Translations under genes and position numbers: made by a program
Notes under the pieces: model-generated
What the model saw: the letters and a program-made list of their open reading frames with translations, nothing else
Told to the model about the DNA's origin: nothing
Databases searched by the model: none
Assembly (NCBI RefSeq): GCF_000275845.1
Contig: NW_006766885.1
Span: forward strand, 1,820,897-1,884,896
Reading direction: 5' to 3'
Length of the DNA stretch: 64,000 bases
Source: Dichomitus squalens LYAD-421 SS1
Taxonomy: Eukaryota; Basidiomycota; Agaricomycetes; Polyporales; Polyporaceae
Shown here: piece after piece, positions 3,532 through 17,809 of the stretch
Layout of the letters: each line of letters begins with the position of its first letter
Numbering within the stretch: the stretch's first letter is position 1

Positions 3532-4735
3532 GCCCTTCGACCGATTGGACCGTTCAGTACCGTGGTCACTTTTGCCTGTACGTGTCCCAGACGATCGCAA
3601 CACAACAAGAACGCCATCGTTACTCGCTTCAAGTTCCGGTGGGCGCGTCTTATACCACGCTCGGATTGAACCGCTCACTGATAGCTCCGTAATCTCTTCA
3701 TTGTATCGGAGTTCAGAACCATCTTCCAGCGAATTGCGTTGTTATATCGCGCGTTGCGCATAGTCGACTGAATGAGTCGTTCAGAGCAACACGCGCACGC
3801 GAATTTTGACTCTGACAGAGCAGATTTCAGAGCCCAGTCAAGTAGCCTGGCTGGAATGCGGGTGCGTAGTCTTGGTTTCCAGTTGCAATAGCCTGAGTAT
3901 TGATCGTCAACCAGGCAAGAAGCGCCTGGCAGCTAAGTAGCACGCTCGCGCCAAAGTACTCCGCGCTGTTTGGTGATGTGCGAGCTCGAGATCCAGTGCT
4001 TGAGTCACGCAGTGTCGTCCCACAAAGCTCATTGATGTTTAACCGCAACAATCAGTCGTCCGAAGCTTGAACGAAGTACATGTGCAGGCCAGCTGTGCAC
4101 CCCGGCTTCCCCCCGCGACTGCCTTTTCCTCTCTGCTACGGAGTCCTCTGGTGTGACAAAGAGGAAGTGGGCTTATGTGCTTGACTAACGGGCTGTGAAG
4201 GTGAGCGAGAGGCATCTACTATTCACGTTGTGTCCGAACCACTCCACAAGCTCCCGCACTCTTACAATCGTCCTGCCGCGAAGGGGAGTACGTGGATAAG
4301 CTGCATGGTTGTATTATCTGTTGACATAGGTCTAGTACACGTTTTGTATAGAAACATTCAGGCGAGAGAGTCAGGATTCAGCGTAAGATAGACAGTCGTA
4401 TAGCGAGGGGGACATTCGGAGAGGACGACGACGACGAAGGAGAGGAGAAAACGAACGGAGGGAGTGAAGAAACTTTGAGCAAGGAAAGAGCATCGCAGCG
4501 ACATATATGTGAGATCTCCGGGTCTAGACGAGTCGTGACATAGACGAAGAAAAAAAAGGGAATGAACGAGTCATCCTGACACAGGTTAATTACGATCCTA
4601 GGGGTACTATCGATATTGACAATGTCCAACGATAAGCAAGCGTTGTATGATACATCCGACGCACTGCGTGTCTCGACTGGAGAGACCTGCCTGCTCCATT
4701 TTGCTTCCGGAACAAACTCGATGTCATGCTACGCC
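3532..4735. other. Intergenic, 3' ends of converging genes
   Basis: This lies between two convergent genes and should hold both 3' untranslated regions. Only short random open frames occur. Bases 4400-4560 are purine-rich (GA-rich). I see no repeat or RNA gene. Confidence 0.5.
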
Positions 4736-12110: not shown

Positions 12111-14193
12111 TCATTTGCCTCCAAAGTGGCTCTGCGCATTGTGCCATGTTGAATAGTGCACGAACGCTTCGCTCAGGAGCATCTCGATTTCGTGGTCAGT
12201 CCAACCCTGCGTGGGTAGGGACTGTAGGAACATGATGATACCCTCCAAAATAGAGTCAGCTTGACTCGTTGAGAAAGAAATACAAAAGCCTACCTGGAAG
12301 TCCATCTCTTGCAGCTTCTTGCTCCAGCGCACGAGGAAAGCCGAGCAGACGTATAGGTGGAATTGAGAGAAAGCATCCGTGCCCTCCGCCTTCGAGCACG
12401 CTTCAGCACTGGCACTGTAGAAAGGAAGATGAAGACCAGCGGGACACACCAGATAGGTATCCCACATTCGAATGGTATTCTGCACACTGATTTCCCGCAT
12501 CAGCAGGCAGTTCATCCACCGGAACGCGAACTGCATGAACTCGACGTTCTCCGCATCTAGATGCGCTGCCAGTGGAGCTGGTAAAAGGTATGCACGATCA
12601 GGCTATGCAAGGACGCGCATAGATGCACGGAAACCGGCGACGCACCATCTATTCGAGCGACGAGCTCCGCCATGCGTTTCACGCTCCTCTGGATGCCGGG
12701 TTGACCGGCTATGTAGTTGTCCTGGATACCATCTAGAAGCCGTGACAAGCACCAAAAGGTGTCTGCCTCCACGGCCATTCGCACGCTGTCGGAGAGGAGC
12801 GCAGTGTCGAATTCCTCTGGGTCGGAGTCTGGTATAAACAGAGGATGAGCGTCAAGGCGCATACACCGATGTTCATAAAAGCGTACCAATGTATGCGGAG
12901 AGAAAAACTTGGAAGAAAGGCGTTGCGAGGTCATTGATGCCTTGCACGTAGCCACTGGCTGGATGCCGTATGGCCCAGACGTAAAGTATTCGCTCAAGAC
13001 TCTGAAGAAATCTGTTGAGACGATGTAGTATGAATAGGGTCCGTGAGGTACGCACCCGCTGAGTGGATTCTTGCATCCATAGTCGCACGCCAGGTCTTGT
13101 CCGAGGGACGTCGATCTCGATCTGATGCCAAATCTGCTGGTCAAGACCATCCCGGCCTCGCATGAAGGTAGTTTCCACCAAGGAGGAATATTCACGACGC
13201 TTCCTGGCGAGTGTGGATGCCCTGGTAGGTTTTGGAAGAGGGAGATAGCCCAGAAGCAACGGCCAAACGAGCGGGCGCAGCTCGTCTGGGACTCCGTTCC
13301 AAGCCAGCTTTCGCAGTTGGGCTGCATGAAGTGAACACGATTGAACTCGTCAAGCTATAGAGCCGCCACATACCGATATCTACGTCCTCGCGGGTGATGC
13401 ACTCCACGAACTTCCTCCGTCTGTTTGTGCGGATGGAATGTTCACGCATGAGCTTCTCTGAGTCCCCTGGCTGCGAGTCGACCCGGGACGTACTGGACGA
13501 CCTCCCAGGCTTGGGGTCGATCAGGCGAAGAGGATCTGAGCGTTGGATAAGATGTAAATGAGCACACACAATCCATATGGGCGCACCATCGACTATCTCT
13601 TGCGCATCGTCCCTCACCACGCCCTGGTCATATCGCGGCTTCCCGCCGAGCGCACCAGCTCGCTCGTCAGCCTCCGAGTCCATTTCTCCAATGACCATGT
13701 CCGCATCCAGCTCTTCGTAGCCTGCACTCTTCGCGACAAAATTGGATTCACGCCCTTCGAGGCTATCGCGCTCGGTAGACTTTCTGACGATCGTCCATCC
13801 GTTCTTGCTGGGCGGCTCCAACTTCTCTTTTGGCGGGTATGAGCTCGGTGCAGCGACATGCGTGTATGAGAAGGCGAGTGTAGACGAAGAGTTATTTAGC
13901 GTGGGTCTTGGTACAGGCTTTGGAGCCGTCGTTGAGGATGATGCCCGCGCATTTCCCGAACGCTTCCAATCGGGCTTGCTTGTGGATTCAGAGTCGGAGG
14001 CACTATCCCAGGCGTCATCTTCCCCCCAGTCGTTGACTACGTACGATGAGAACTTGGTGTTAGGGTTCAAGCCGATGTGAGGGCGAGCGGGAGGAGGACG
14101 AGCAGTCATCTCGCGGTCGATGGTAGAGACGGATCTGTCTCCAGATCTCTTCCCTTCGTCTCCCGCAGGCGCTTGCTCACAATGTTCGCTCAT
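12111..14193 (-). CDS. Gyp1-type TBC-domain Rab GTPase-activating protein
   Basis: Homologue of yeast Gyp1 / human TBC1D22, a GAP for Golgi Rab (Ypt1-type) GTPases. Exons: 13374-14193, 13056-13321, 12887-13001, 12646-12828, 12450-12577, 12294-12389 and 12111-12242, giving about 579 residues. The first 270 residues are polar and probably disordered. The TBC domain starts at QLRKLAWNGVP. Both catalytic fingers are present: the arginine finger in IEIDVPRTRPG and the glutamine finger in GYVQGIND. Family-specific blocks follow: NTIRMWDTYL, FSQFHLYVCSAFLVRW and EMDFQ joined to GIIMFLQSLPT. The last two introns (12390-12449 and 12243-12293) would end in AAG and GAG rather than CAG or TAG, and both are multiples of three without stops. 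A third such candidate, 13536-13586, lies in exon 1. Each could be retained without breaking the frame, so isoforms differing by 17-20 residues are possible. I chose the ATG at 14193; the frame extends 27 bases further up only through a GTG. Confidence 0.88.
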
Positions 14194-14551
14194 TGCCGGT
14201 CCAGGCGGATCAGACGACACCCTTGCGGTGTAAGTACCTCCACCTACTTGGCACTACGACTCTCTGCCATAGGTACGCATATGCCATGTGGCACTCTCTC
14301 ATGCAATTGCAAGCATACGTCAGCATCTAAATCATTCAAACCGACGTTATCATCCGTTCCGGCCGAGTAGCAGGTAGGAAGCCAAATCATGGACACTACG
14401 GCGGTATGTTTCTTTCCCAGATGAAGGCATAACTTGAAATCTCGATATGATTGGTTTACTCAAACTCGCGGATGATCGTTTTCAAGATAACGTACGGGGC
14501 ATAAAGCAGATATTGATACAATAGAGGAGCAAAGATATCAGATGCAGCCAG
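14194..14551. other. Upstream region of the Gyp1-type gene
   Basis: 358 bp between the start of the Gyp1-type gene and the stop of the Hsp70-fusion gene. It holds the former's promoter and the latter's 3' end. No element was recognised. Confidence 0.5.
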
Positions 14552-17500
14552 TCACGATCGCGAATGTCTGAGCACGTTCGTGATTGTGATCGACTTCAAG
14601 TTGCCCCTGTCGATCGTCTTCAGCATCGAACTCTAGAGGGGGCTCAGGATGGAAATGTGCTACTCACGTTCCCTTATCCACGGCAGTGACTTGCATGATA
14701 CCATTCATGTCGAGTCTGAAGGTGACGTCTATTTGGGGCACCCCGCGATGGGCGGGTGGGATGCCTGGCAATTCGAACATGCCGAGTAGATGGTTATACC
14801 TCGTCAGACGCTGCTCGCCCTCGAAAACCTTGATGTTCATCGAGGTTTGCCAGTCAACTACGGTGGTGAACATCTCACTCATGCATGTCGGGATGGGGGT
14901 ATTGCGAGGGATGATCGGCGCCATCACTCCGCCCACCGTCTCGATGCCGAGCGTGAGTGAGTTGACATCAAGGACGGCAAGCATGCAGTAGTCGTCGTCC
15001 CCGGCGAGAATCGCGCCTTGGACTCCAGTACCATAGGCAGCTGCTTCTTCGGGGTTTATGGCCGTCGAAGGCTCCTTTCCAAAATAGTCCTTCAAGAGCT
15101 GCTGTACCTTCGGGATGTGGGTGGAGCCACCGACCGTGATGATCTACGCACGAGTCAACGTAAGGTACCGCGTCTAACTGACAACAAGCGATAGAGGCTT
15201 ACGTCGCCGACATCTTCCTTCCTCAGCTTTGCGTCAATCAGCACCTGCTCAGTTAAGAGCATCGTGCGTCGAAATAAGTCCATGTTGAGCTCCTCAAACT
15301 TGGCCCTTGTCAGTGTCTCCGAGAAGCCGTGCTCCCCTTCTAGCGCTTCAATGTCAATGTTCGTCGACTGCTGGCTCGACAGCGTTCGCTTCGCCTTCTC
15401 GACCTCACTCCTAAGCTTGCCCAATGTACGAAGATTCGAGCTGACGTCAATCCCGGTTCTACTTCTGTGCTGCTTGACGAGGTAGTCGAGGACGCGGTTG
15501 TCAAAATCTTCACCGCCGATCTTGGTGTCTCCAGCGGTGGCCAGGACCTTGGAGTCCCCGTCTTTGATAGAGATGAGAGAGACGTCAAATGTACCGCCTC
15601 CAAGACGGTATACTAGGACACGCGATGGTTCGCCCCTCTTGTTCAGACTGTAAGCGATTGCGGCTGCGGTAGGCTCGTTAATGATGCGGATGACTTGCAG
15701 ACCGGCGATTGCCCCAGCATCCTTTGTAGCCTGCCGTTGTGCATCGTTGAAGTCTAGAAAGATTTAGTGAAGATTCAGCACGTGTGGGAGATAGCTCGAC
15801 TTACGGGCAGGGACCGTGATTACGGCTTGCACAACCCGCTGACCAAGGAAAGATTCCGCATCCTGCTTCATCTTCCGTAAGACCATGGCGGCGATCTCCT
15901 CCGGAGTCTGAGGAGACATAAGAAGCATACTCGGAATAAGAACGTGTTCCCAGATGCTCACGAAATTCCGGACGACGCCACAATCCTGAACTTGAATTTT
16001 GAGCTTGCCGTCCTCCTGGACGACCTTGAATGGCCTGAGATGTGTTGATCAATGTTGCTCATGGCATATGCTGAGGAACATACCAGTATTTGAGGTCCTT
16101 CTGCAGTTCAGGATCATCGAAGTCACGACCGATCAAGCGCTTGACGTCAAAGACCGTATTCTGAGGGTTCGACTGGTATGCATTCTTTGCGCTATCTCCC
16201 ACACTGAACGATAGTTTAGCGGAAGTGATTCCGCTCAGGGTAGGCATAGACTCACAGTCGTTCATCAGCGGTAAAGCTGACCCACGAAGGGGTAGTCCGC
16301 TGGCCTTTCGCGTTGGGGATTATTTCTACTCGTTCACCACGTTTCGCGCTGGCGCATGAATACGTGGTTCCCAAGTCTACAATGTGACGTTTCAGGCTGT
16401 CTCAGAGGGCTATGATGAGATGCAGTACTCACCGATCCCTATGACGGGCGGTATGATTTCCAATTCAATCTCGTCGTCGGCAGGAACGGCTTCGGGACCT
16501 GCCACCACCATAGCCGGAGCAGTTATCTCGGAAGCTGGTGCAGGCTGGGATCTCATCTCGAAGCCTTCCTGCGCCAATGCTGAGCTGTCAGGGGACAATA
16601 GGACGCTGCTAGTTGGACCTGTCGTCGCCGAGAGTCCACCTTTTGCATGCAATGCCGAAGCTCCGGGCGCATTGACATCCATAGGGAGTTCATGGAAAGC
16701 TAGGCGAAGAGACTGCGTGGGGTCCGGCTCTCTTGCTGATTCGTCGCCGTGGGCCCGCGTAGGCATGGGGGGAAAGCCAGATCGATCGTAGGTATGGGGA
16801 AGAGCTGCCTTGTTCGGTTCGTCAGGCAACGACCCCCCGTTGTCGCGAAGAGAGTGAATCCTCTCGTTCTGCTTGATGGTTGCATGCGCAGTATCCTTTG
16901 AAGCGTCGCGAGGAGAAGTGACACCAATAGAACGAGCCTGCAGTCGGGTGACCGTGGGAGCGACATAAACATCCCCGTCTGGAGGGCTTGCTACAGATGG
17001 GCAGGTAGGTTAGTGAACTAAACCTCACGAATGGTGTCACATGAGATACGTACAGTATTTTTCCTCACTGCATGTGGAAAAGCCGGCACGCACGCGCGAT
17101 CTTCGCTTTCGAAGGCAGCAACAGAAGACCGCAAGCAAGACCGCTGCGACGAGGGCGATTCCGCCAATCACGCCTCCCACGATGGGGCCGACTCGAGTAG
17201 ACGATGATGCTGTCGGCGATGATAGACCCAATGCGGAAGATCCGTTCGTCGTACTTGATGTGGGCACAATGCTTGCTGCAGTTGACGAGCCCGAGCCACC
17301 GATCTCAGGGTCAGACGTGTTGAAACTGATATAGTCCAGGAAGTAGGGGGCGTCGGCACTTGCATGCGAGATGTTGATCACCAGGGTGTATTCGCCGTAC
17401 GGCATGGTGCTAGACTGGAAGAAAGTGACGTTGTCTCGAGGAGTGGATACATCAGGAGCGATGAACTCTTGACGGTTCCCCGAACCGACACTGTAAAGCG

Positions 17501-17809
17501 AGACGGGCCGCTTGCGCCCATTCGTTACAGGCTCGACGCGGCCAAAAACCGATACCTGTGTGCCTATACCAAGACGTAGTGATGTAGAGTTAACTTTCAA
17601 ACCCTCTTGTGAAGTATGAAGGTGGGGTGCGACGTACCCCAAAAGGTGAATGTCGCTGAGAGACCTGTACACGGTCCCTCACGAACTTCTCCCCCCGAAA
17701 CGTTCCGGTCACTTGGAAGATAATGAGCCCTCCAAATGCTCTCATCATCCACGTTGTAGTAATGTATTTGATCGATATCTAGATCGTCGACAATAATTAA
17801 GCCAGACAT
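14552..17809 (-). CDS. Membrane receptor-like ectodomain fused to a BiP-type Hsp70
   Basis: Ten exons join in phase into 912 residues: 17638-17809, 17054-17563, 16433-16990, 16256-16376, 16084-16203, 15962-16034, 15805-15907, 15203-15753, 14668-15143 and 14552-14606. Residues 1-140 resemble the jelly-roll-like ectodomain of agaricomycete single-pass proteins (TFTFWG joined to TQVSVFG, ending [10 protein letters not shown]). A Ser/Thr stalk precedes the helix at about 185-208 ([19 protein letters not shown]), followed by [10 protein letters not shown], so the C-terminal side should be cytosolic. A polar linker of about 200 residues leads into VIGIDLGTTYS, exactly where mature BiP begins. The ATPase domain keeps FDVKRLIGR and [10 protein letters not shown] but has arginine at residue 602 ([10 protein letters not shown]) where Hsp70s have catalytic aspartate. 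The beta substrate domain ([18 protein letters not shown] onward) ends shortly after SITITN: no helical lid, no HDEL-type tail. No stop separates the two halves. Alternatively there are two overlapping genes, the second starting at a Met inside the linker. Confidence 0.75.

Follow-up and report, generated by a model that had tools for sequence, protein, structure and literature searches.

The minus strand of the genome of the wood-decay fungus Dichomitus squalens LYAD-421 SS1 carries, between positions 17809 and 14552 of the 64 000-nucleotide stretch analyzed here (the window), a gene in which a copy of the endoplasmic reticulum Hsp70 BiP (also Kar2 or HSPA5), without its signal peptide, is fused in frame to the N-terminal part of a receptor-like single-pass membrane protein. 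An earlier note on this DNA had proposed such an arrangement, and the proposal is supported at the gene level. Hsp70s are normally soluble ATP machines. The Hsp70 encoded here ends without a lid and carries Arg at the Asp199 site and His at the Arg342 site, three features that had escaped the earlier note. The explanation we favor, with somewhat better than even confidence, is that the joined BiP copy forms with the receptor a single protein in which the lidless, altered Hsp70 acts as a tethered low-affinity binding arm.

From N- to C-terminus, the predicted fusion protein consists of an ectodomain, one membrane helix, a tail, an Hsp70 ATPase domain and a beta substrate domain. Its ten exons, separated by nine GT-AG introns, maintain a single frame over 2739 nt, corresponding to 912 amino acids and a stop codon, and the exon limits, splice sites and frame first proposed are confirmed. 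Exon 1 (17638..17809; this and all following exons on the minus strand) provides the start codon and the first part of the ectodomain (residues 1-57); it was assigned from its frame and donor site and from the unfused receptor paralogue of the same genome, which has the same start, intron position and phase. Exon 2 (17054..17563), defined with homologues P0003-P0011, encodes the remaining ectodomain, the membrane helix and a basic stretch. The helix, placed as announced at about residues 185-208 (about 17183-17112), is a hydrophobic stretch followed by the basic motif RKRRSRVR. Exon 3 (16433..16990) encodes the receptor cytosolic tail up to residue 409 and the joint, with the VIGI of BiP at 16445-16434; its assignment relies on tail homology, on an identical joint in P0006 and on a donor site located at the position and phase of BiP intron 1. 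The ATPase domain extends over exons 4 (16256..16376), 5 (16084..16203), 6 (15962..16034), 7 (15805..15907) and 8 (15203..15753), of which the last carries the Arg that occupies the Asp199 site (residue 602, 15607-15605). Fusion intron 4 corresponds to BiP intron 2 and fusion intron 6, which spans 54 nt without an in-frame stop, to BiP intron 3. Exon 9 (14668..15143) encodes the end of the ATPase domain, with the His of the Arg342 site (residue 745, 15119-15117), the interdomain linker and the beta substrate domain, and exon 10 (14552..14606) the last strand of the beta domain and the stop codon, without a lid. The gene is flanked on both sides by minus-strand open reading frames that match RabGAP-TBC and AIM24. 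No tandem repeat was detected at score 40 between 14000 and 18600, and a DNA search of the assembly (40.3 Mb, 116 contigs) for a second copy or allele returned only the gene itself, the BiP gene of the same genome and the receptor paralogue on contig C52.

The N-terminal half belongs to a polypore family of receptor-like single-pass proteins, with which it shares ectodomain, helix, basic stretch, tail and introns 1-2; homologues are found in Ganoderma, Fomes, Trametes and D. squalens (12 matches among 7992 scored candidates). The paralogue on C52 matches exons 1-3 with the same start, helix and tail, and its two introns occupy the same positions and phases as introns 1-2 of the fusion gene, within a gap of two residues. 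The two ectodomains are identical at 92 of 149 residues with a dN/dS of 0.17, and 2 of 446 residues distinguish the paralogue from P0004, a D. squalens protein. Pfam searches of the ectodomain gave no match at 0.001 for the exon 2 reading and none at 0.1 for P0004, and P0005 and P0006 yielded only weak matches below the cut-off. Predicted structures are poor, with mean pLDDT values of 38.5 for P0004 and 40.5 for P0001, and the AlphaFold model of P0004 places the only helix of that protein at 183-212. Many further receptor-like matches lie on contigs C10, C11, C22 and C28, several of them clustered, for example at C10:857167-860726 and C11:506191-528903.

The segment of about 200 residues that follows the helix had been called a linker, a description that does not hold. 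Over residues 229-409 the fusion aligns with the unfused paralogue's tail (z 8.5, 300 shuffles) and with that of P0003 (z 10.8); the match to P0005 is weak (3.0) and those to P0007 and P0008 are not significant. Taken alone, the last third of the tail (341-409) shows no match to the paralogue (z 0.9, with scores as high in 95 of 500 shuffles), and it matches P0003 (z 4.3) and P0006 (z 9.9). It is counted as the receptor's own because P0006, whose last 60 tail residues match the paralogue (z 7.0), bridges the two sequences. The six homologues with a complete tail (P0003, P0004, P0005, P0007, P0008 and P0011) terminate in IPPAYT(P/S)(D/E), and P0009 and P0010 have other endings after the helix. 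The unfused paralogues P0003-P0005, P0007, P0008, P0011 and that of C52 end IPPAY(T)(P/S)(D/E) with nothing behind, whereas the fusion gene and P0006 continue into VIGI. Judged from these alignments, the so-called linker is the nearly complete cytosolic tail of the receptor family, interrupted about five codons before the position of the stop codon in the unfused paralogue.

The cytosolic location of the Hsp70 part suggested by the earlier note is indeed predicted by the basic residues behind the helix and by N-glycosylation sequons, which all seven family members listed carry where residues 121 and 139 of the fusion align. Because a reading of the sequences by eye reveals no recognizable N-terminal signal peptide in the receptor family, this orientation is something we infer.

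Recognizable BiP sequence begins at VIGID (residue 410), inside the exon that encodes the tail. The Hsp70 part had been thought to start exactly where mature BiP starts; it really starts about 10 residues inside mature BiP, the signal-peptide cleavage point of the BiP of the same genome being our own reading. In this BiP gene, intron 1 comes after VIGI and has the phase of the intron found there in the fusion gene. Fusion introns 3, 4 and 6 follow codons 413, 453 and 518 in phases 1, 2 and 0, and BiP introns 1-3 lie at codons 52, 92 and 157 in phases 1, 2 and 0, with a constant offset of 361. Since exon 3 encodes the VIGI of BiP and since BiP introns 1-3 match in position and phase, a chance origin of the joint is excluded. 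Descent from BiP is equally apparent in the protein: BiP is the best match of the Hsp70 part in the genome (71% over the largest stretch), and BiP chains head the list of solved structures, human BiP being the best (6hab, E 1.5e-193). Neither end of BiP has been retained, the joint lying after the signal peptide and the C-terminus reading RHSRS where the BiP of the same genome ends with HDEL.

The intron pattern also bears on the source of the BiP copy. The retained BiP introns led us to reject a retroposed copy. A recent copy of the BiP of the same genome was rejected as well, this gene (L045 1879-4108) lacking fusion introns 5, 7 and 8; its own fourth intron, at codon 465, is in turn missing from the fusion gene. 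Besides P0014, 13 of the 119 listed open reading frames matching exon 8 were fetched: 12 of the 13 break before FNDAQ, at the place of intron 7, and 11 of the 13 break, by eye, at the place of intron 8, while the place of intron 5 is merely suggested by two (P0015 and P0016). Because the BiP of the same genome is devoid of introns 5, 7 and 8 and breaks at intron 7 are common elsewhere, the copy probably originated from an older, intron-richer BiP. Downstream of both the BiP gene (L045, from about 4388) and the unfused receptor paralogue (L046, about 3618-4330) lies one and the same element, with inverted ends (GGGGTAGTC...AAGATGGCG); no such terminal-repeat element is present in the window.

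The joint is also found in a second lineage. The metagenomic sequence P0006 carries the receptor helix and tail and the same tail-to-PPVIGI joint, ELEIIPP followed by VIGI, in an open reading frame seen without Hsp70 exons; after VIGI it reads GECQLL and then a stop, which would fit an unspliced donor like that of the window. The Hsp70 part has its own metagenomic relative in P0014, the best of 7996 scored exon 8 matches (120 listed), which carries 18 of the 41 fusion-specific residues, compared with 6 for the next best and a median of 2 among the 120 listed, and which groups with the fusion gene and P0001 in a tree of 123 rows (support 0.996). P0006 shows the joint and P0014 the Hsp70 clade; the two are located on different contigs and neither singly covers the whole fusion. 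Together, these relatives point to an old join that has been retained.

The only annotated relative found for the Hsp70 part is the D. squalens protein P0001, one representative of a four-member cluster; a search among 7990 scored candidates for long proteins carrying the receptor part gave two matches, P0001 and a chytrid protein covering 2% of the query. The P0001 gene model takes as its start an ATG within the tail exon, at fusion codon 303, which raises the alternative of two products from one locus, a soluble tail-Hsp70 started internally in intron 2 or exon 3 and a separate receptor ending in intron 3. Four in-frame ATGs in exon 3 and an early in-frame stop in intron 3 are compatible with it, P0006 having been called as just such a receptor-only frame. 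However, the first 107 or so residues of P0001 are still receptor tail, the frame is kept from ectodomain to Hsp70, and metagenome callers ignore introns, so that the end of P0006 is expected either way. We consider two products unlikely and one transcript the better account. A separate Hsp70 gene would be conceivable only in the form of that alternative, as the receptor tail exon contains both VIGI and the donor of BiP intron 1.

The Hsp70 part belongs to the Hsp70 family: P0001, the D. squalens counterpart on which the score was taken, reaches 663.7 bits against Pfam PF00012 (cut-off 20.6; profile positions 1-503 of 599), and the window exons likewise exceed the cut-off. Compared with the BiP of the same genome it is identical at 343 of 496 residues, and over these 496 codons a simple counting method gives a dN of 0.21, a dS of about 2.0, which is near saturation, and a dN/dS of 0.10 (0.085 for the ATPase domain, 0.167 for the substrate domain). 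Because every codon has stayed open over that synonymous distance, neutral drift is not credible: the Hsp70 part is under retained selection and not decaying. A decaying pseudogene or a functionless chance fusion would agree with the loss of the lid and of the catalytic Asp, and with an evolution faster than that of BiP (tree distances of 0.33 between fusion and P0014 and of 0.08 between the BiP of the same genome and P0015). This selection signal, the mere 4 of 323 residues differing from P0001 in exons 4-8 and the derived residues common to another lineage (P0014) nevertheless make it very improbable.

Two residues of the ATP site are changed, their roles being taken to be those in Hsc70 and BiP. 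Arg occupies the Asp199 site in all three clade members (window gene, P0001 and P0014), and 116 of the 120 listed exon 8 matches have Asp there, the exceptions being P0014 and one each with Glu, Asn and His. The latter three, P0035, P0116 and P0120, are exon-sized BiP-like open reading frames. The Arg342 site is His in both members that cover it (window gene and P0001), P0014 not extending over the site. The other ATP-site motifs checked, D10, T13, K71, E175, T204 and E268/K271/R272, are kept. No helical lid is encoded: the stop codon comes seven residues after SITITN (SITISN in P0001), the C-terminus reads NVL(R/K)H(S/A)RS in the window gene and P0001, and a search for a lid remnant in window positions 13001-15000 found none, its single match being a chance one of five residues (E 2.8).

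Could the protein, for which the earlier note considered a tethered chaperone or a sensor, still be an ATP-driven Hsp70 chaperone held near the membrane? Most ATP-site residues are kept, the dN/dS of the ATPase domain is low and the interdomain linker is recognizable, but the Arg and His replacements run through the clade and the lid is gone. An ordinary tethered chaperone thus appears quite unlikely, the changed Asp199 site and the missing lid making a canonical ATP cycle improbable. A loss of hydrolysis is nonetheless not certain: according to a study of DnaK, in which the residue matching Asp199 helps to hold Mg, changes at this site cause mainly allosteric defects that a second change, in the lid, can rescue (PMC12406271).

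Two non-canonical Hsp70s provide terms of comparison. Ssz1, of the ribosome-associated complex, is described as lidless, binding ATP without hydrolysis and a proline-rich motif at low affinity (PMC7083937). The fusion resembles it in lacking the lid while keeping a complete beta substrate domain (the BiP alignment runs through SITITN) and in the probable loss of hydrolysis; it differs in being BiP-derived and, as predicted, membrane-bound and in having no known J-protein partner, where Ssz1 pairs with Zuo1, and common descent with Ssz1 is not indicated, BiP matching best. HSPA13 (STCH) is a non-canonical Hsp70 tied to the secretory pathway (PMC9691929). It has no substrate domain and an active ATPase, whereas the fusion has kept its beta domain and has an altered ATP site. 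From BiP itself, its closest family, with introns 1-3 in common, the Hsp70 part differs by its position behind a membrane helix and by the losses given above. By analogy, it is probably a membrane-tethered, lidless, non-hydrolyzing module working as Ssz1 does.

The events leading to the favored explanation can be outlined. At the DNA level, a copy of BiP broken between the signal peptide and intron 1 would have been attached to the final exon of an agaricomycete receptor-like gene that had been duplicated. The product would cross the membrane once, with a small ectodomain on the outside and the BiP-derived Hsp70 on its cytosolic tail. Selection would have maintained the Hsp70 part during the loss of the catalytic Asp199 site and of the lid, and this part would most likely no longer run a normal folding cycle. 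The altered ATP site, the absent lid and the Ssz1 precedent favor a tethered low-affinity module for peptides or co-chaperones, which may bind short segments of its own proline-containing tail or of partners and could give the receptor a cytosolic arm that acts as sensor or scaffold.

The window gene and P0001 do not differ evenly: 3 of 111 residues differ in the tail, 27 of 158 in exon 9 and 4 of 18 in exon 10. The excess in exon 9 is significant against exons 4-8 (p 1.5e-10) and against the tail (p 1.3e-4), for a comparison of two sequences. P0001 also has eight extra residues near its end, where a by-eye reading of intron 9 indicates that the window could share its splicing. The divergence sets in where exon 9 starts (15143-14552), as if a recombination or conversion event ended near intron 8. 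When polarized by the BiP of the same genome, five of the exon 9 differences fall on the window side, eight on the P0001 side and 14 differ in all three sequences. Both versions look old because of these changes on both sides and three-way differences. At eight positions that we take to be those of the substrate pocket, picked after the alignment had been seen, five differ (human BiP positions 426, 428, 451, 454 and 461), compared with 20 of 100 across the substrate domain, with an uncorrected p of 0.0075 for this post hoc choice. A more speculative explanation, for which we see only a slim chance, is that the peptide groove of a captive, non-cycling Hsp70 forms the inner recognition part of the receptor, maintained in at least two old versions in the species for self/non-self or pathogen-peptide recognition. 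Alternatively, the divergence could reflect introgression, gene conversion or an old haplotype under relaxed constraint.

No description of such a fusion was found among the listed titles and abstract openings of open-licence literature, a weak negative with most subscription papers outside, nor did any of the listed titles on allorecognition and Hsp70 concern such a gene. In D. squalens, gene editing is in use in the laboratory strain CBS464.89, a monokaryon (PMC8533725). If selection has indeed preserved this capture, the gene would show the Hsp70 fold turned into the cytosolic arm of a receptor. Should the substrate-domain versions prove to be true alleles, the use of chaperone grooves for recognition in fungi could be tested directly at this locus, which, if the recognition explanation holds, would represent a polymorphic fungal receptor for peptides derived from a chaperone.
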